The notes under the pieces were generated by a model. The model saw nothing but the letters and a program-made list of their open reading frames with translations. It was not told where the DNA came from and did not search any database. This document shows, piece after piece, positions 24,202 to 61,815 of a stretch of 64,000 nt of DNA (positions are counted from its first letter, which is position 1; each line of letters opens with the position of its first letter). Both the position numbers and the translations under genes were made by a program. Where the stretch lies: the NCBI RefSeq assembly GCF_000092285.1, contig NC_014100.1, positions 2,356,001 to 2,420,000 on the forward strand. Reading direction: 5' to 3'. The DNA comes from Caulobacter segnis ATCC 21756. GTDB lineage: Bacteria > Pseudomonadota > Alphaproteobacteria > Caulobacterales > Caulobacteraceae.

Positions 24202-25548
24202 ATGTTCGACAAGATCCTGATCGCGAACCGGGGCGAGATCGCGCTCCGGGTTCACCGTGCCTGCAAGGAAATGGGCATCGCAACGGTGGCCGTGCACTCC
24301 GAGGCTGACCGCAACTCCATGTGGGTGCGCCTGGCTGACGAGAGCGTCTGCATCGGCCCGGCTCCCGCCGCCAAGAGCTATCTGAACATCCCGTCGATCA
24401 TCGCGGCCGCAGAAATCACCGGCGCCCAGGCGATCCACCCGGGCTATGGCTTCCTGTCCGAGAACGCCCGCTTCGCCGAGATCGTCGGCGCGCACGGCTT
24501 CACCTTCATCGGTCCGAAGCCCGAGCACATCCGGATGATGGGCGACAAGATCACCGCCAAGCAGGCCGTGAAGGACGCCGGCATCCCGGTCGTTCCTGGC
24601 TCGGACGGCGGCGTCTCGACCGAGGAAGAGGCCTTCGAGGCCGCCGAGAAGATCGGCTTCCCCGTGCTGATCAAGGCCGCCGCCGGCGGCGGCGGTCGCG
24701 GCATGAAGGTCGCCCAAACGCGCGAGGACCTGGCCGAAGCGGTCTCGACCGCCCGCGCCGAGGCTCGCGCCGCGTTCGGCGACGACACGGTCTACATGGA
24801 GCGCTACCTCCAGAAGCCGCGCCACATCGAGCTGCAGGTGATCGCCGACAGCCATGGCAACGTGGTGCACCTGGGCGAACGCGACTGCTCGCTGCAGCGT
24901 CGTCACCAGAAGGTGCTGGAAGAGGCCCCCTCGCCGGCCCTGTCGGCGGAGGGCCGCGCCAAGATCGGCAAGGTCGTGGTCGATGCGGTCAAGGCCATCG
25001 GCTATCTGGGCGTCGGGACCATCGAGTTCCTGTGGGAGAACGGCGAGTTCTTCTTCATCGAGATGAACACCCGCCTGCAGGTCGAACACCCGGTCACCGA
25101 AGCCATCACCGGCATCGATCTGGTGCGCGAACAGATCCGCATCGCCGCGGGCTTGCCGCTGTCGTTCACCCAGGAAGACGTGGTCTTCGAAGGCCACGCC
25201 ATCGAATGCCGGATCAACGCCGAGAACGCGCGGACCTTCACGCCTTCGCCGGGCGTGATCACCGACTTCCACGCCCCTGGCGGCCTGGGCGTTCGCCTGG
25301 ATTCGGCGATCTACACCGGTTATGCGATCCCGCCCTACTACGACAGCCTGATCGGCAAGCTGATCGTCCATGGCCGCGATCGCGCCGAGTGCATCGCTCG
25401 TCTCAAGCGCTGCCTTGGCGAGATGGTGGTCGGCGGCGTCGAGACGACGATCCCGCTGTTCCAGGATCTCCTGGTCCAGTCCGACATCCTGGCCGGCGAC
25501 TACGACATCCACTGGCTGGAGCGCTGGATTAAAGCCCAGGAAGCCTAA
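24202..25548 (+). CDS. accC: Biotin carboxylase AccC
   Basis: Carboxylates the biotin of AccB with bicarbonate and ATP. The 448 residues have the ATP-grasp layout: N-terminal [16 protein letters not shown], the Gly-rich [12 protein letters not shown] lid near 160, [23 protein letters not shown], the metal-binding [17 protein letters not shown] near 285 with the catalytic Arg, and the C-terminal [15 protein letters not shown]. It is encoded right after accB. The following gene, aat, begins 13 bases downstream and may be on the same transcript. Confidence 0.98.
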
Positions 25549-25561
25549 GGTCCGGGTGGCG

Positions 25562-26217
25562 ATGGAAGACGCCTTCACGGTCGACGACCTGATCGCCTGC
25601 TACGCGCGCGGCGTCTTCCCCATATGGCCGACGCCCGCGAGGACGAAAGCCTCTTCCTGATTGATCCCGAGCGGCGGGGCGTCCTGCCGCTCGGGGACTT
25701 CCACATCCCCAAGCGCCTGGCGCGCACGGTGCGCAACGGCCCTTACGAAGTCCGCATCGACACGGCCTTCGACGCGGTGATTGAGGGTTGCGCGGCCTCG
25801 AGACCCGGCCGCCAGGACACCTGGATCAACCACCCTATCCAACAGCTCTACGGGCAGCTCTACGCCCGCGGCCTGGCCCACAGCATCGAGACCTGGCTGG
25901 ACGGCGACCTCGTCGGCGGGCTTTACGGCGTGTCGCTAGGCGGCGCGTTCTTCGGCGAGAGCATGTTCTCGACCGCGCGAGACGCCAGCAAGGTGGCGCT
26001 GGTGCATCTGGTCGCGCGGCTGATCGCCGGCGGCTACCAGCTTCTGGACACCCAGTTCCTGACCGATCACCTGACGCAGTTCGGGACGGTCGAGATCAGC
26101 CGCGCCGACTATCGCCGGCGTTTGGCCAAGGCCCTGACGGTCCACGGCGACTTCTACGGCTTGGCGGGCGGCGCGACTGGGATCGACTGCTTGCAGGCGA
26201 TCAGCCAGGCGTCATAG
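25562..26217 (+). pseudogene. aat: Leucyl/phenylalanyl-tRNA-protein transferase, split by a 2-base frameshift
   Basis: Aat adds Leu or Phe to N-terminal Arg or Lys, marking proteins for ClpS/ClpAP degradation. The 5' part (ATG 25562, [20 protein letters not shown]) is in one frame and the rest ([19 protein letters not shown]... to 26217) in another. The junction reads CCC-ATATGGCC at 25619-25629; removing one AT gives CCC-ATG-GCC and a continuous 217-residue protein of normal length. The C-terminal part has [22 protein letters not shown] and [19 protein letters not shown], classical Aat motifs. Either the gene is broken in this strain, or this is a sequencing error; an internal start at 25624 would lose the first 20 residues and has no ribosome-binding site. 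Confidence 0.88.
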
Positions 26218-26819
26218 ACCGGGTGCTCCAGCGGGTTCAGGCCCGGCGAGCTGGCGTACATCCACCCCTTGTAGATCTGCCGTCCGGGCGGCGCGGGACG
26301 GCCCGCCTGCGCCTTGGGCTGGGTGTCGACGATGACATAAGCCGTCGTCTCCGGCGCGATCTCGTCAGCGGCGGCGGTCTCGCAGGCGCGGACCGTGAAG
26401 ACCAGCGTCTTGTAGCGAATGGGCTGCCCGACCGGGACCTCGAACCGCATGGTCTCGGTGGTGACCTTGTCCAGCGCCTGGAGGATGGCGATGGCGTAAC
26501 GCTGGCGTTTGGCCGGCTCGGGCGGCTTGACCGGCACGGCGGGGGACGCGGGCTTGTCTGACGCAACGACGGCCGGAGCCGGCGCAGGCTGCGGACTGGC
26601 GGCGGCCGGCGCGGGCGCGGTCTGCGCGGACGGAGATGGACGGAGCTCAGGCGCTTGTTGAGCGCCCGCCGGACGTGCGGCGGGGGCGACAGGTGCTTGG
26701 GGCGCGGTCGGCGGCGTCTGAGCGGACTGAGGAGCCGCCTGACGCGCGAGCGCCGCGCCTGTCCCGGCCAGACCGGCCAGCACCGCGGCGGCGGCGATCC
26801 AGGACGCCCGGCGGGACAT
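26154..26819 (-). CDS. DUF2155 protein, exported, Pro/Ala-rich
   Basis: A 221-residue protein with a signal peptide ([24 protein letters not shown]...), a long Pro/Ala/Gln-rich stretch (about 27-110) and a C-terminal DUF2155 domain (about 113-212). The domain has [20 protein letters not shown], the Cys-containing [11 protein letters not shown], and [27 protein letters not shown]. The two Cys may pair. Function is unknown, but in alphaproteobacteria the domain is often next to the NDUFA12 gene, as here, with 5 bases between them. The 3' end overlaps the convergent aat by 64 bases. Confidence 0.85.
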
Positions 26820-26824
26820 CCGTC

Positions 26825-27220
26825 CTATTCCGGCGACCAGGCTTGATAGTCGCTGGTGGCGGCCGCGCGCTCGCCGCCGCGCGTCAACGAACCCTTCGGA
26901 CGCCAGGCATGGACGGTGCCGGTCAGGTTCGGGATGTGATCCTTCTCCCAGTCGCGGCGCTTCAGCGGCGTCTGGGTCGGCGGCTCGTCGAAGGTGTAGT
27001 GCAGCCAGCCGCTCCAGTCCGGCGGGACCTTCGAGGCCTCGGCGTAACCATTGTAGATCACCCAGCGACGCTTGCGCTGGTCGTAGCTGTCGCTGTTGTC
27101 GCGCGCTTCGAAGTAGCGGTTGCCCTGCTCGTCCTGGCCCACGAAGACGCCGCGACGGCCGATATGGAAACGCTGACCCAGGGTCGCGCCGTTCCACCAG
27201 GTGAAGATCGCTTTCAGCAC
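26825..27220 (-). CDS. NADH:ubiquinone oxidoreductase accessory subunit NDUFA12
   Basis: A 131-residue homologue of the mitochondrial complex I accessory subunit B17.2, found in alphaproteobacteria but not in E. coli. Motifs are FTWWNGATLGQRFHIGRRG at the N-terminus, RYFEARDN, RRWVIYNGYAEASKVPPDW and LHYTFDEPPTQTPLKRRDWEKDHIPNLTGT. It should sit on the peripheral arm of complex I at the inner membrane. The start is GTG 27220. The core nuo operon is not in the window. It is transcribed together with the DUF2155 gene. Confidence 0.94.
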   Translation of the reverse strand: MLKAIFTWWNGATLGQRFHIGRRGVFVGQDEQGNRYFEARDNSDSYDQRKRRWVIYNGYAEASKVPPDWSGWLHYTFDEPPTQTPLKRRDWEKDHIPNLTGTVHAWRPKGSLTRGGERAAATSDYQAWSPE

Positions 27221-27501
27221 TAGGTTCGCACCCGAAACTTAAGAGGGCTCAAGACAGACCGCGACCTGCGCGGCGAAGCGGCGCGACTATAGGGCCGCGG
27301 CGATGCAGCGTCCAGCGCCGCACCGCGACAACGAACTTCAACATCTTGTGGATTAGCACCCCTCCACCCGCAACATCTATTGAGAGCGGCGGCGAGAGGT
27401 TCTAGCGTGGGTGCGACCTTACGCGCATCCCGACCGCGTGGAATCACGCGTTAGGGATTTGGTAAGCTTCTAAGCTGGCAGACGGAACCAGGAAACGTCC
27501 C

Positions 27502-30237
27502 ATGCGCACGCCCGCCAAAGCCGCCGGAACGGTTCCCACGATGGAATGGCGCGACCTCGAGCGCGCCGACAGCATCATCGTGGTCGCCGCCCCCGCGACC
27601 TGGACGGACGCCCGTGTCGAGGCTTGGCTCGACTGGGCCGGGACGATCGAGCCCAAGGCGCCGCTCGGCGGCGGTCCGGCCCGCTACGCCGAGCGCGTGG
27701 CCAAGATCGGCCTCGCGCGAGGACTGTTCGGGGACAAGGCCGACGCCGCGGCGTTCAAGGACGCGCTTCTGGCGACCATGCTGTCGGGTTACGCCACGCC
27801 GGCCGGCGGTCAGGTCGGCCAGGAACTGCTGCCCGACATCAGCGAAATCGAATTCCAGACCGTGGCGCGGCAAAGCCTGGCCCGCCGCCGCGCCGCGAGC
27901 CTCGCCGCCCAGGCCGCCGGCCGGCTCGACGCGGCCCTGGCCCAGGTGACCGACGCCGTCCGTCGCTGCCAGGGTGACGCGCGGGCCTGCGCCGACGTCC
28001 GCAAGAACCCCGCCCTCGCCCGCGCGGCGCGCAAGGCGCGCGAGCTGGGCGCTGACGACCGTACGATCCTGGAGGCCATCGCCACCGCGGACGCGCCGCG
28101 CTCGCCGCTGGCGGATCTGGCGCCGCCGCCCGAAAACGACATGGTCGCCTCGGCGTCGCGTCAGGGCGTGGCCGCCGGCGACGAAGCCGCCGCTCTGGCC
28201 GCGCATGTGGCCTGGGAGGCCGGCGCCCTCACCCTCGCCTTCTCGCCGCAGGACGCCGAGATCCTGGCGCGCGGCGTCGCCGTCGGAGCCGCCATCGACG
28301 CCAGCGCCTTCCTCGACGACGAAGGCTTTGATGTCGAACGCTTCACCGAGGTGTGCCACCTGTGGGGCACGGCGCTGGAACTGGATCGCGGCGACCAGCC
28401 GGCGCGCCTGTCCCTCGCCGGCGTCGGCGACTGCCTGCTGAGCCAAGGCCTCTCGCAAACCAGCGCCGAGGGCCGCGACGGCGCCGCGGCCCTGTGGGCG
28501 CTGGCCGTCGGCGCCGCCCTTTCGGCCAGCGCCGAGGCCGCCTCCGCGCTCGGCCAGGACCCCGCCTACGCCCAAGACCGCCAAGGCGTGCTCAAGACGC
28601 TGGCCGAACGCCGCGTCCGCGCCGCCGCCCTGCGCTCCGAACTCGCCACCGAGGCCGCCACGGCCCTGGCCACCGCCCATGGCCTGGCGCGCAAGCACGG
28701 CCTGCGCTCGGTCGCCTTGGTCGGACCGTTCGAAGACGCCGAGGCCACGCTGCGCCTGGGCGGCGCGCCCATTGGCCCCGCCAATGCGATGGCGCCCGTG
28801 TCGGTGGCTCAAACCGCCGACGGCCTGCTTCTGCCGACCTTCAGCCCCGCCGCCATGGAGGCGCTCTCGGCCGAAGGCGCGGACCTCGACGCCGCGCGCC
28901 GTCACGCCCTGGGCCATGGAACCCTGGCCGAGAGCCCGGCCATCGACCACCTTGTGCTCCAGGCGCGCGGCTTCACTGCCCACGAGATCGAGAAGGCCGA
29001 GAACGCGCTGCGCGAATGCCGCGGCCTGCGCGCGGCCTTCGCGCCCGCAGTTATGGGCGCGGGTTTCCTGCGCGACGTGCTGGGCGCCTCGGCCGAGGAC
29101 GTCGCCCGCCGCGACTTCGACACCCTGGCCTTCGCCGATTTCACCGAGGACGAGATCGAGGCCGCCGAGCGCCACGCGCTGGGGGCCGGACGCCTTGGCG
29201 ACTGCGAAGCGCTCAATCCCGAACTGCGCGAGGCTTTCCAATCGGTGGAAGCCCCCGCCTTCGCCGACCGCCTGGCGATGCTGACCGCGGTGGAGGGCTT
29301 CGCCTGCCTGCCCACCACGGTGCCTCTGCCGATCGCTTTCGACGCGCGCCCCGCCGACGCCGTCCGGGCCCAAGCCGCCGCCGCGCGCGCCGGGGTCCGC
29401 GCCCTGCGCCTGCAACGCGCCGCGGCGCCCGCCGAGTTCAAGCTGGAGCTCCCCGACGAGCCCGTCGCCGAGCCGCAGCGCCCCACGCCCCTTCGCGAAA
29501 AGATGGCGCGCGAACCGATCGTCACCGAGCGGGTGGTCGAGAAGATCGTCGAGCGCGATCGCTCGCGCCGCCGCCTTCCCGATCGCCGCAAGGGCTACAT
29601 CCAGAAGGCGGCCGTCGGCGGCCACAAGGTGTACCTGCATACCGGCGAGTACGAGGACGGCGAGCTGGGCGAGCTGTTCATCGACATGCACAAGGAAGGC
29701 GCGGCCTTCCGCAGCCTGATGAACAACTTCGCGATCGCCGTGTCGCTGGGCCTGCAGCACGGCGTGCCGCTGGACGAGTTCGTCGACGCCTTCGTCTACA
29801 CCAAGTTCGAGCCGGCGGGCCCGGTGACGGGCAACGACTCGATCAAGTCGGCGACCTCGATCCTGGACTATGTGTTCCGGGAGCTGGGGGTCTCGTACCT
29901 GGGTCGAGACGACCTGGCCAACGCCGATCCCAGCGAATTCAACGCCGACGGCCTGGGTTTCGGCAAGCAGCTGGTCGACGCCGACGAGGACGGCGAGCTC
30001 GATCCGGTGCCCGCCAGCCGCTTCATCTCGAAGGGCTTCTCGCGCGGCGCCACGCCCGACAACTTGGTCTTCGCCGCCTTCGGCCGTCGCCGGGTGGAGG
30101 GGGCCGAGCGCCCTGGCGTGGAGGGCGAGATGTGTCCGTCGTGCGGCGACCTCTCGCTGGTCCGCCGAGGCGCGATCACCGTCTGCGACACCTGCGGCGC
30201 GCAGTCCGACCAGACGGGACCGATGGCGTCTTCCTGA
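27502..30237 (+). CDS. Class II ribonucleotide reductase (NrdJ)-derived protein without the catalytic residues
   Basis: A 911-residue protein of unknown function. The C-terminal part (about 688-855) is nearly canonical for the tail of alphaproteobacterial Nrd[81 protein letters not shown], followed by a zinc ribbon with CPSC (877-880) and CDTC (895-898). The first 640 residues still follow NrdJ in order ([12 protein letters not shown] near 172; [14 protein letters not shown] near 275; [16 protein letters not shown] near 468) but are much shorter and diverged. The NPCSE active-site motif corresponds to SPQDAE near 247, and APTGTIG to GPFEDAE near 405. The radical Cys is therefore gone. The frame is intact and GC-biased like its neighbours. 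Confidence 0.8.
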
Positions 30238-30418
30238 TCGCCCGAACGGAGCGGCGCAGCGCCCTCCCCCTCTCATCGACCCACCGTTGAGACGGCCGCG
30301 CGGCTCTACCTGCGGCGCGGTTAAATCCCCGTCATTACCGCGATTTAAGTGGCTTCTGGCGCCGGCCGGGTTCAAACCGTAACTCACACAGTCGCTTATG
30401 GACTGCACGGAGAAATTC

Positions 30419-31294
30419 ATGTTCCGCTTGGGCGCTCCCATCGCCGCCTTGTCGCTGAGCCTGCTGGCGATGGCCGGCCAGGCGCACGCCGCGACCGAGG
30501 ACCGCGATGTCGCCCGGCTGACCTCCTTCGGCGGTACGTGCGCCAGCTGCGATCTGGCCGGCCGCAAGCTGATGAACGCCAAATTCGCCGGCGCCAACTT
30601 CTCCAAGTCCGTCCTGATCGGCGCCGACCTGCGTGGCGCCATGTTCTACGGCAGCAATTTCGTCTCGGCCGACCTGAGCCGCGCGGACCTGCGCGGCGCC
30701 GAGATGCGCGGCGCCAACTTCAACAACGCCAACTTCACCGACGCGCGCATGTCGGGCGTCGAAAGCAGCGGCGCCAACTTCCAGCTGGCGATTCTCGTGC
30801 GGGTCGATCTGTCGTCCGCCGAACTGCACGGCGTCCAGATGAACGGCGCCAACCTGCAAAAAGCCCGTTTCTCGAACGTCGAACTGATCGCGGCGAACCT
30901 GTCGGGCGTGAACGCCCGCGACGCCGACTTCTCGAACGCCGACATCAATCACGCCAACTTCCAGGGCGGCCGCTTTGAGGGCGCCAACTTCCGCAACGCC
31001 GATCTGACCGGCTCGAACCTGCGCGGGGCCACCTTCGGCGGCGCCGATTTCCGCAACGCCGACCTGTCGCTGGTGGTGTTGAGCGGCGCGGACCTTTCGA
31101 CCGCGCGCGGCCTGGATCAGGACCAGCTGGATGAAGCCTGCGGCGATGGCGGCACGCGCCTTCCCTCCGGCCTGACGGTTCGCTCGTGCAGCGGCATTCG
31201 GGGCTCGCAGCAGTTCATGCTGTGGCGGGAAATGCCCAAGGCGCCGCCCGCGCCTCCGGCCCCGCCCAAGCCGCCGAAGCCGCCCAAGTGGTGA
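30419..31294 (+). CDS. Exported pentapeptide-repeat protein
   Basis: A 291-residue protein with a signal peptide (MFRLGAPIAALSLSLLAMAG, cleavage near AHAA at 25) and a long run of pentapeptide repeats of the A(D/N)LxX type (about 45-235), such as GADLRGAMFYGSNFVSADLS, GANFNNANF and GANFRNADLTGSNL. Such repeats form a four-sided right-handed beta helix. Cys pairs flank the helix (CASC near 42 and two Cys near 245-260), and the tail is Pro/Lys-rich (PPAPPKPPKPPKW). The periplasmic or surface location is inferred from the signal peptide. The ATG at 30419 follows a GGAG site; an in-frame ATG 7 codons upstream is less likely. Function unknown. Confidence 0.88.
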   Translation: MFRLGAPIAALSLSLLAMAGQAHAATEDRDVARLTSFGGTCASCDLAGRKLMNAKFAGANFSKSVLIGADLRGAMFYGSNFVSADLSRADLRGAEMRGANFNNANFTDARMSGVESSGANFQLAILVRVDLSSAELHGVQMNGANLQKARFSNVELIAANLSGVNARDADFSNADINHANFQGGRFEGANFRNADLTGSNLRGATFGGADFRNADLSLVVLSGADLSTARGLDQDQLDEACGDGGTRLPSGLTVRSCSGIRGSQQFMLWREMPKAPPAPPAPPKPPKPPKW

Positions 31295-31385: not shown

Positions 31386-33215
31386 CTAAACCTTGATGGG
31401 CGGCGCGGTGCGGATGTGCAGCTCCTTCAGCTGCTTGTCCAGCACGTTGGCCGGGGCGTTCATCAGGAGGTCCTGGCCCTGCTGGTTCAGCGGGAAGGCG
31501 ATGACCTCGCGGATGGCCACCTGGTCGGCCAGCAGCATGACGATGCGGTCGATGCCGGGCGCCAGACCACCATGCGGCGGCGCGCCGTAGCGGAACGCGT
31601 TCAGCATGCCGCCGAACTGCTCCTCGACGACCTCGGGGCCGTAGCCGGCGATCTCGAAGGCCTTGAGCATGATCTCGGGCTTGTGGTTCCGGATCGCGCC
31701 CGAGCACAGCTCATAGCCGTTGCAGACGATGTCGTACTGATAGGCGCGGATGGTCAGCGGATCCTGGGTCTCCAGGGCCTCCAGACCGCCTTGCGGCATC
31801 GAGAACGGGTTGTGGGAGAAGTCGACCTTCTTCTCGTCCTCGTTCCACTCGAACATCGGGAAGTCGACGATCCAGCAGAACTTGAACTGGTTCTCGTCGA
31901 CCAGCTTCAGCTCCGTGCCGACGCGGGTGCGGGCCAGGCCGGCGAACTTGGCGAACACGGCCGGATCGCCGGCCACGAAGAACGCGGCGTCGCCGGCGCC
32001 CAGGCCCAGCGACTCCATCAGCGCCTGGGTCGGCTCACCCAGGTTCTTGGCGATCGGACCGCCCCAGCCGCCCTGGTCTTCCGACCAGAACACATAGCCC
32101 AGGCCCGGCTGACCCTCGCCCTGGGCCCAGCTGTTCATGCGGTCGCAGAAGGCGCGGCTGCCGCCGGTGGGGGCCGGGATCGCCCACACCTGGTTCTTGG
32201 CGTCGGCGCCCAGGATCTTGGCGAACAAGCCGAAACCGCCGTCACGGAAGTGCTCCGAGACGTTGGCCATCTTGATCGGGTTGCGCAGGTCCGGCTTGTC
32301 GCTGCCGTACCAGGCCATCGACTGGGCGTAGGTCAGGCGCTCGAAGCCCTTGTGCTCGAACGTCGCGCCGAAGTCGTTGACGAAGGTGTGGGTCTCGCTG
32401 ATCGGCGAGACGCGACGGCCATTGCCGAATTCCTCGAACACGCCATGCATCACCGGCTCGATCGCCGCGAAGACGTCTTCCTGGGTGACGAAGCTCATCT
32501 CGACGTCGAGCTGGTAGAATTCCAGCGAGCGGTCGGCGCGCAGGTCCTCGTCGCGGAAGCACGGGGCGATCTGGAAGTAGCGGTCGAAGCCCGAGACCAT
32601 CAGCAGCTGCTTGAACTGCTGGGGCGCCTGCGGCAGGGCGTAGAACTTCTCCGGATGCAGACGCGAGGGCACCAGGAAGTCGCGCGCGCCTTCCGGCGAG
32701 CTGGCCGTCAGGATCGGCGTCTGGAACTCGTTGAAGCCCTGCGCGAACATGTGGTTGCGGATCGACTGGATCACGCGCGAGCGCAGGACGATGTTCTTGT
32801 GCAGAGTCTCGCGACGCAGGTCGAGATAGCGGTGCTTGAGGCGGATCTCTTCCGGATAGTCCGGCTCGCCAAAGACCGGCAGCGGCAGTTCGGCGGCTTC
32901 GCTCAGCACTTCCACGGCCGAGACACGTATCTCGATCTCGCCGGTCGGCAGGTTCGGGTTCACCACGCTGGCGTCGCGGGCGATGACTTCGCCGTCGACG
33001 CGGATCACGCTCTCGGCGCGCAGGCGCTCGACGATCGAGAAGCCCGGCGTTTCGGGGTGCAGGACCAGCTGCGTCAGGCCGTAGTGGTCGCGCAGGTCGA
33101 TGAAGACCAGCCCGCCGTGGTCGCGCTTGCGGTGGATCCAGCCCGACAGCCGCACGGCCGCGCCGGTGTCGGAAGCGCGAAGAGCGCCGCAGTTATGGGT
33201 GCGATAGGCGTGCAT
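31386..33215 (-). CDS. aspS: Aspartyl-tRNA synthetase
   Basis: A class II synthetase that charges tRNA-Asp; in bacteria without AsnRS it also misacylates tRNA-Asn for the amidotransferase route. I start at ATG 33215 ([15 protein letters not shown], 609 residues), the family N-terminus; ATG 33224 would add three residues. The OB-fold anticodon domain (about 1-105, [21 protein letters not shown]), the class II motifs ([53 protein letters not shown]) and a GAD insertion domain are all visible. It shares a terminator with the pentapeptide gene. Confidence 0.97.
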
Positions 33216-33294
33216 CGAGGTCATGAAAGTCTTGAATACGCGGTGATTTGCAAGGCGCGGTAAGGCGCACGTGGGCGCCGCGATGTCAAGGATT

Positions 33295-33330
33295 CTGGGA
33301 CAAGCCATGCGCCCGCGCGGCTTGTCCCAG
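33295..33330. terminator. Perfect 12-bp inverted repeat downstream of tpiA
   Basis: CTGGGACAAGCC and GGCTTGTCCCAG flank a 12-base loop, 14 bases after the tpiA stop codon and ahead of aspS. There is no T run in either direction, so it is a hairpin of a stabilising or weakly terminating kind rather than a textbook terminator. Confidence 0.55.
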
Positions 33331-60196: not shown

Positions 60197-61011
60197 CCCC
60201 AATGATCGACGAGGCGTACGGCGGCGATCACAATGGCCGCGAACATCAGACCGTCGACCCGGTCGAGCAGGCCGCCATGGCCCGGAATGATGTCGCCGCT
60301 GTCCTTCACGCCAAAGCGGCGCTTGAGCATCGATTCCCAGAGATCGCCGGCCATGGTCGCCAGACCGCCGAGGAAGCCGACCAGCGCCGCCGCCGGCCAG
60401 ACAAGCCTCAGATGGGCGAAATAGGCCACCAGCATGGCTCCGATCGTCGCCGCCACGAGTCCGCCGACAAAGCCCGACCAGGTCTTGTTCGGCGAAATCT
60501 GCGGCCAGAGCTTGGGGCCCTTGAAGATGCTGCCGGCGACATAGGCGAAGATGTCCGCGAACCAGGTGACCACGAACAGCAGCAGGGTCCACCACAGGCC
60601 GTCCGGCAGGGATCGAACCCAGACCAGAGCGATGACGGCGGGCGCGATATAGACCACGCCATAGGCGGCGTCGGCCCGCCGCTCGACCGCGCCGCGCGCG
60701 ATCAATCCGGCCAGGAAAGCTCCGACCAACACGACGGTCCAGGCGATGAAGAACTGATGCAGGAAGGCGGCGATGACCGCCAAGGCGCAGAAGACGCCGA
60801 CGACGGCGCCGACGGCGCGCGGCGCTTTCGGAGCGCTGATCTTGCCCCACTCCCTCGCCAGCAAGGCCACGCAGATCAGGGCCAACGCCAGGATCCACGC
60901 GCCGCCCAACCATACGGCGGCCACGACGGTAGGCACGAGCACGGTGGCCGAGACCACACGCATTCGTAGATTGCCCCAGTTGAAGCGCTTAGCCGGCGAC
61001 GGCGACGTCAT
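60184..61011 (-). CDS. cdsA: Phosphatidate cytidylyltransferase
   Basis: Makes CDP-diacylglycerol from phosphatidic acid, the branch point of phospholipid synthesis, in the inner membrane. The ATG at 61011 ([19 protein letters not shown]) gives 275 residues. Six to eight hydrophobic segments are visible and the C-terminal signature is complete: [20 protein letters not shown] followed by DRVDGLMFA. It overlaps uppS by 23 bases and dxr by 13 bases, typical for this operon. Confidence 0.96.
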
Positions 61012-61768
61012 CGGCCGCGACCCCTCCGTAACGTCGATCCCGACGGCGATACTCGGCGATGGCGGCCGCAAGGGCTTCCGGTCCGTAGTCGGGCCACAGG
61101 ACGTCCTGGAACACCAGTTCGGCGTAGGCGCTGTCCCAGAGCAGGAAGTTGGAGATACGGCGCTCACCGCTGGTGCGCACGATCAGATCCGGCGGCGGCG
61201 CGGCGGCGGTCGACAGCAACTGACCAAAGGACTCCTCGGTGAGGTCCTCAGGCCTGGCCTCGCCGCGGACGACCTTTTCGGCGAAAGCCCTGGCCGCGTC
61301 GGCGATATCGGCCTGACCGCCATAGTTGAAGGCGACCTGCAACACGAACTCGGTGTTCTGGGCCGTGCGCTTTTCGGCCCGCTCGATGACCTCGGCGATA
61401 TCCGGGGACAGGCCAGCCCGGCGACCGATGATGCGGACTTTCACACCCGCCCGCGCCAGCCGCTCGAGGTCGGACTCCACATAGGCCTTGAGCAGACCCA
61501 TCAGCTCGGAGACCTCCTGGGCCGGGCGGCGCCAGTTCTCGGTCGAGAAGCCGAAGACCGTCAGCACACCGACGTTCTGACTTTGAGCGCCCTCGACGGT
61601 GCGCTTCAAGGCGTTCACCCCGGCGCGATGGCCCAGGACGCGCGGCATGCCCCGCTGCTTCGCCCAGCGGCCATTGCCATCCATGATAATGGCCACGTGC
61701 AGTCGCTGGTCGGGCGCGCCTACCCCGGCGCGCGCCGAAACGTCCTGCAAGCCGGTGGTCGGCGACAT
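60989..61768 (-). CDS. uppS: Undecaprenyl diphosphate synthase
   Basis: Makes the C55 lipid carrier for peptidoglycan and O-antigen synthesis by cis-prenyl elongation. I start at ATG 61768 (MSPTTGLQDVSARAGV, 259 residues), preceded by GGAAGGTTGAAG; an upstream ATG adds 11 residues. The catalytic Asp is in VAIIMDGNGRWAKQRG near 28. Other signatures are GVLTVFGFSTENWRRP, VAFNYGGQADI and RTSGERRISNFLLWDSAYAE. Confidence 0.97.
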   Translation of the reverse strand: MSPTTGLQDVSARAGVGAPDQRLHVAIIMDGNGRWAKQRGMPRVLGHRAGVNALKRTVEGAQSQNVGVLTVFGFSTENWRRPAQEVSELMGLLKAYVESDLERLARAGVKVRIIGRRAGLSPDIAEVIERAEKRTAQNTEFVLQVAFNYGGQADIADAARAFAEKVVRGEARPEDLTEESFGQLLSTAAAPPPDLIVRTSGERRISNFLLWDSAYAELVFQDVLWPDYGPEALAAAIAEYRRRDRRYGGVAADDVAVAG

Positions 61769-61815
61769 CCGCTTCAACCTTCCCTCGTCCTCTCCCCACA
61801 CAACAGGAAGGGCGA

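Follow-up and report, generated by a model that had tools for sequence, protein, structure and literature searches.

A putative non-catalytic descendant of class II ribonucleotide reductase with a conserved tail core in Caulobacter segnis

We analyzed a stretch of 64,000 nucleotides of the Caulobacter segnis ATCC 21756 genome (NC_014100.1, positions 2,356,001 to 2,420,000; hereafter, the window) that carries, at window positions 27502–30237 of the forward strand, an open reading frame with an ATG start for a protein of 911 amino acids (aa). The frame matches a model of NrdJ, the B12-dependent class II ribonucleotide reductase (RNR), below the model's cut-off and occupies the place that intact nrdJ genes hold in related genomes. 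The gene is probably an ancestral alphaproteobacterial nrdJ that became a non-catalytic protein without leaving its locus, with a selected job that would lie mainly in a conserved core of its C-terminal tail. Sequence comparison and structure prediction support this reading through the orthologous locus, the reductase fold of the protein's shell, the loss of the catalytic cysteines, the retention of a zinc site and of nearly the whole tail core, purifying selection, and, across the class, several losses of catalysis that arose separately.

The NCBIfam model NF005736 (1222-aa B12-dependent alphaproteobacterial NrdJ) matches the window protein in four stretches (E = 2.6e-119) with a score of 399.6 bits, far under the cut-off of 1737. 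Among named proteins, its nearest relatives come from Caulobacter and are labeled 'ribonucleotide reductase' or 'TSCPD domain-containing protein'. Residues 1–644 form the shell (27502–29433, +), which AlphaFold2 (AF2) predicts with high confidence to adopt the fold of an RNR large chain minus the active-site cysteines. The tail core (residues 688–807; 29563–29922, +), delimited by residue conservation, contains a Pfam TSCPD domain (residues 705–795) that passed the gathering cut-off (40 bits versus 22.8). Behind it lies a zinc ribbon (C878, C881, C895, and C898; 30133–30195, +) that lacks both shuttle cysteines and has a sub-threshold Pfam match at residues 878–901. We placed the ribbon by alignment and assigned its cysteines after the description of S. 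nassauensis NrdJ, in which four C-terminal cysteines are assigned to zinc and two to electron shuttling (PMC5704485, in part). Seven of the protein's 11 cysteines are outside the ribbon; two of them in the shell, C156 and C163, are invariant across the 74 Caulobacteraceae-type sequences that we aligned. Profile, alignment, and predicted structure all link the N-terminal part to RNR, in agreement with the original prediction of a class II RNR shell that had lost its radical chemistry.

We aligned 33 shortened, dead forms from the order Caulobacterales (the window protein included) residue by residue with intact NrdJ proteins. The finger-loop NPC.E motif, which holds the thiyl-radical cysteine, was present in 14/14 intact proteins and at no position in any of the 33 dead forms. 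The same split was found for the three active-site cysteines (232, 508, and 519 of the intact protein L064), including the active-site redox pair (232 and 519). Furthermore, the position of the N-terminal redox cysteine is a gap in 33/33 dead forms, T708 of the PTGT loop is retained in 0/33, and most of the block surrounding Cys232 is missing. The losses that had been named from the window alone (NPC.E, the redox cysteine, and the PTGT loop) therefore extend to all of the aligned dead forms. Of six C-terminal cysteines, the dead forms retain four: the zinc-assigned ones, read from sequence only, are kept in 33/33 and either shuttle cysteine in 0/33. In intact proteins, the shuttle pair and both cysteine sets together are present in 13/14. 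The exception is L062 (genome G073), which has an intact NrdJ barrel and a frame that breaks inside the tail core and continues in another frame, reflecting either a recent loss or a sequencing error. We included L062 in the motif and cysteine counts and excluded it from the intact set used for core columns.

These losses make it scarcely credible that the protein is still an RNR that uses other residues. The predicted NrdJ fold and the seven cysteines outside the ribbon could be cited for such an activity, but the finger-loop cysteine, both active-site redox cysteines, and both shuttle cysteines are missing from every dead form, the Cys232 block is mostly gone, and the genome encodes other RNRs.

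A scan of named genomes gave the same picture. Among the best 80 of 592 confirmed loci, a selection in which the dead/intact split is no frequency, 53 had all five scored active-site residues and 26 had none of the cysteines. Both C-terminal cysteine sets were found in 52 of the 53 intact proteins. The 26 dead forms, three of which are cut by a contig end at the 5' side (L183, L187, and L188) and one at the 3' side (L172), had the four zinc cysteines in 24 cases and a shuttle cysteine in none. Dead forms in this selection include Caulobacter, Phenylobacterium, Brevundimonas, Asticcacaulis, and Maricaulis salignorans records; intact forms include Robiginitomaculum, Aquisalinus flavus, Kordiimonas laminariae, Rhizobium, and Kiloniella litopenaei. 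We rejected one candidate intermediate with an intact barrel part and a dead tail (L186), as the sequences it most resembles change abruptly, where the conserved tail begins, from other NrdJ to those of Brevundimonas. It is probably an assembly chimera and was placed in neither class.

In the order, the tail core largely escaped the divergence that affected the reductase part. At columns invariant in 18 intact NrdJ proteins, the 33 dead forms retain a mean of 95% of the 74 core columns, 67 of which are retained in at least 90% of the dead forms. For the reductase part, the average is 19% of 280 invariant columns, with eight columns in at least 90%. In intact NrdJ, invariant residues are also denser in the core (74/120) than in the reductase part (280/927). 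The tail had been described as well conserved from about residue 688 to 900, which holds for two blocks, the core (688–807) and the zinc ribbon (878–898), but not for the variable stretch between them.

Selection on the frame was estimated from ratios of nonsynonymous to synonymous substitution (dN/dS), calculated by the Nei-Gojobori method against the window for 30 Caulobacter loci (one of them the window's own copy) after applying a distance filter. The median dN/dS was 0.21 for the whole gene (28/30 loci past the filter), 0.23 for residues 1–670 (28/30), and 0.16 for residues 687–860 (29/30), compared to 0.13 for the neighboring NDUFA12 gene and 0.30 for the pentapeptide gene. These values are approximate because synonymous distances are large, yet they speak against neutral drift. 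A homolog was detected in 74/75 Caulobacter genomes (in some by fragments only) and in 60/60 of good quality. Ten Caulobacter matches had an internal stop, which in nine corresponds to the natural end of the frame directly after the zinc ribbon; in the tenth, from the draft genome G205 (~680 contigs), the frame terminates inside the core. The G205 frame, the shortened and diverged reductase part, and the absence of both forms from 9/150 genomes of the order are what a decaying pseudogene with its loss still pending would produce. We consider such decay highly improbable, however, given the low dN/dS and the near-universal presence in Caulobacter, the open frames, core-residue retention, and 33/33 zinc sites across the order, and the high-confidence predicted fold. 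Thus, the expectation that the frame is under selection was borne out, and neutral decay was not supported.

The genomic context ties the gene to nrdJ. We compared the window with 40 loci of the order and a further 40 of the class; with the window included, 48 loci are dead and 33 intact. The recurring gene order is accB-accC-aat-DUF2155(-)-NDUFA12(-)-X-(pentapeptide)-aspS(-), where X is either intact NrdJ (~1200 aa) or a shortened form. In the window, the conserved upstream neighbors are accC (24202–25548, +), aat for leucyl/phenylalanyl-tRNA protein transferase (25624–26217, +), the gene for a DUF2155 protein (26157–26966, -), and a divergent NDUFA12-like gene (26825–27220, -). Downstream are the genes for a pentapeptide-repeat protein (30398–31294, +) and the convergent aspS (31386–33308, -). 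NDUFA12 is divergently upstream in 45/48 dead and 22/33 intact loci, the pentapeptide gene downstream on the same strand in 29/48 and 9/33, and aspS convergently downstream in 30/48 and 5/33; these counts are limited by the differing distances at which the fetched loci end, and many intact loci are from outside the order, some without the arrangement (e.g., L061, L065, L150, and L151). Wherever the gene order is common, the dead gene is in nrdJ's place, as expected from descent in place rather than from transfer. The window gene is thus the ortholog of alphaproteobacterial nrdJ by descent, at the same locus as the intact gene. The locus also has a 1063-aa open frame antisense to the gene (27451–30642, -), which we took for a by-product of high G+C.

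Shortened forms predominate in the order. All 150 genomes match the NrdJ model somewhere: 35 with a full-length protein (29 over the cut-off), 106 with a shortened form, and 9 with neither, a split read by hand from the scores (the 33 aligned dead forms are from the 106). Across 289 genomes of the class, NrdJ was over the cut-off in 166. A closer look at 24 genomes, including 19 from outside the order, covered 15 proteins encoded by 14 of these 19. All of the proteins lack the complete active site; one (L125) retains a cysteine at column 519. Shells with a core occur in lineages f45 (69 of the 74 core residues) and f154 (70, and 48 in a second, truncated copy). Core proteins of 272–278 aa without a shell occur in f13, with the ribbon (65 and 65), and in f102, without it (64 and 60). 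Reduced forms with a diverged core are found in f31 (42 and 40) and f104 (39). Shell remnants with the core lost or barely recognizable are found in f108 (10), f119 (5 and 3), and f125 (18 and 17), represented by L132, L133, L134, L135, and L125. In the SAR11-type genomes of f102, the 272–274-aa core protein without a zinc ribbon is at the nrdJ locus (L130:9144-9968 and L131:8409-9227), and the L130 protein has 98% identity to a Candidatus Pelagibacter sp. protein.

To place the losses, we used a quick LG+G4 tree of six neighboring genes with 61 rows and support from the Shimodaira–Hasegawa-like approximate likelihood ratio test (SH-aLRT). Twenty of the 81 rows were left out for marker shortage, including both f154 and both f31 rows, which are therefore not in the loss count. 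Composition is unusual in L046 and in the rows of f13 and f102. The tree needs six changes between intact and dead forms, five of which are forced by well-supported branches. Since regain of a whole radical site is implausible, the six changes can be read as separate losses, apparently in f102 with f13; f108; f45 with f119 and f104; f125; part of f4; and f1 with f2 and f3.

The cell that carries the window gene has other means to reduce ribonucleotides. The window's genome encodes NrdA (NF006577, 1034.5 bits versus 620) and NrdB, as well as an intact 788-aa class II enzyme of the NrdJ_Z type with an NPCGE motif and a cysteine-rich tail (L001:1126-3492; C1:3302788-3304188 region). NrdA and NrdJ_Z are the RNR large chains found in this genome; no second NrdJ of the window protein's subtype and no matching NrdJa were found in it, so the proposed partnership with a 'real NrdJ' could not be with one of the same subtype. 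NrdAB has no recognized ATP-cone, and the genome's single ATP-cone match is in a separate protein, which we take to be NrdR from its start motif. NrdB was matched in 137/289 genomes of the class, including 12 of the 14 genomes from outside the order that carry a dead or core-only form, but not G421 or G430. A different RNR large chain is present in G421. In the 1.5 Mb draft G430 (f119), the degenerate protein is the only RNR large chain found, and no NrdB match is listed. Three genomes with intact NrdJ (G004, G005, and G133) also have a second RNR large chain.

Several observations weigh against assigning the selected job to the tail core. Lineages f108, f119, and f125 retain remnants of the shell with the core lost or hardly recognizable (3–18 of 74), so the core is not the sole part that can be kept, and in f31 and f104 the core itself is diverged (39–42 of 74). 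The gene is dispensable in the nine genomes of the order with neither form. In addition, the core has a low predicted local distance difference test (pLDDT) score in the AF2 models of both the window protein and the Pelagibacter tail protein (mean pLDDT of 33.5 for the latter). Finally, neither the window nor L001 showed an NrdR-box-like site; L002 has one three-mismatch site near nrdA, which is in the chance range (19/200 shuffles had as many). Some of these points would suit a function of the whole dead shell, which would join an active RNR (NrdA or NrdJ_Z) in mixed dimers or oligomers and dampen or adjust its activity, much as a dominant-negative subunit does. The confidently predicted fold of the shell, the purifying selection on residues 1–670 in Caulobacter, and the shell remnants without a core are consistent with this role. 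We nevertheless consider it unlikely, because the core proteins of f13 and f102 exist without a shell and conservation across the order is much lower in the shell (19%) than in the core (95%).

The reading that we favor places the job mainly in the tail core. Because the same core residues were held before and after the enzyme died, we infer that this job is independent of reduction even in the living enzyme. Electron transfer cannot persist in a dead form, but assembly or binding can. The core is most likely a binding or assembly module that would act as a regulator or scaffold around deoxyribonucleoside triphosphate (dNTP) supply. In a studied relative, S. nassauensis NrdJ, the C-terminal domain is required for tetramers and hexamers induced by the purine dNTPs dATP and dGTP as well as for electron transfer (PMC5704485). 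Long C-termini of class II RNRs have a predicted IscU-like fold with a suggested part in oligomer formation, and the relevant text reports no role for the domain so far (PMC9669993). A nucleotide-responsive or partner-binding role is a candidate that fits the data. That NrdAB, with no recognized ATP-cone, is the module's target is a guess, and a doubtful one.

The original prediction had also proposed a cobalamin sensor. Descent from a cobalamin enzyme and the import of B12 by Caulobacter (PMC6538847, in part) would accommodate an NrdJ-derived protein that binds cobalamin as a sensor or store. However, in the split Pseudomonas aeruginosa enzyme, as far as its description in PMC4520616 goes, B12, substrate, and effector binding reside in NrdJa and not in the tail subunit, while here it is the tail that is conserved. 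Reduced relatives keep the tail core only and have no barrel, which makes such a sensor unlikely as a shared function. Furthermore, an Rfam scan of five sources (the window and four loci) gave no match and hence no cobalamin riboswitch. Overall, we regard this role as very unlikely.

The C. crescentus counterpart of the window gene is very probably CCNA_01966, judged by position. CCNA_01966 is listed as 'vitamin B12-dependent ribonucleotide reductase', and an antisense peak is given for it at 2110225–2110275 (-); CCNA_01996, an undecaprenyl pyrophosphate synthetase, is at 2142908–2143687 (-) (PMC5869019, in part). When the spacing between this peak and CCNA_01996 is applied from the window's uppS (60989–61801, -), it lands within 27502–30237 (+); this equal spacing identifies CCNA_01966 as the putative ortholog. 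A B12 pathway figure shows CCNA_01966 as NrdJ in nucleotide reduction (PMC6538847), a label that is wrong on this evidence. No description of this dead NrdJ turned up in the open-licence literature, mostly judged by listings.

More broadly, we lean toward the view that the C-terminal core of class II RNRs is a separate module with a catalysis-free job. In Alphaproteobacteria, the reductase would have been hollowed out on several separate occasions while the module stayed near-unchanged at the locus and, in SAR11, became nearly free-standing (274 aa). If true, the 'enzyme tail' would be an ancient regulator, acting on dNTP supply or on some other process, that an RNR happened to carry. The window protein appears to be a bacterial pseudoenzyme of the RNR kind that has been retained through much of an order to which the cell-cycle model Caulobacter belongs. 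Dead forms such as this one let the IscU-like tail domain be studied where reduction cannot mask its role, and the SAR11-type protein, little more than the domain, offers a further setting.

Inactive homologs of RNR large subunits are known from viruses, such as M45 of cytomegalovirus, which lost catalysis and gained a new role. Those homologs are viral, belong to class I, and target host proteins, and their loss is of unrelated origin. Compared to alphaproteobacterial NrdJ (NF005736; R. sphaeroides structures 7b9p and 7b9q), the window protein shares the locus, the predicted fold of residues 1–644, the tail core, and the four zinc cysteines. It differs in its length (~910 rather than ~1220 aa), in lacking the thiyl cysteine, the redox pair, and the shuttle pair, and in scoring far below the family cut-off. 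We consider that the retained core (Pfam TSCPD) corresponds to the IscU-like domain described in part of PMC9669993, from which the likeness to IscU comes, the core model here being of low confidence; unlike in that description, the core is found in proteins without reductase chemistry and once nearly free-standing. NrdJb of P. aeruginosa is likewise a class II RNR tail apart from the barrel, similar to the core-only proteins of f13 and f102. However, NrdJb carries out dithiol exchange (PMC4520616, in part), whereas the window protein has no shuttle cysteines and retains the zinc-assigned four.
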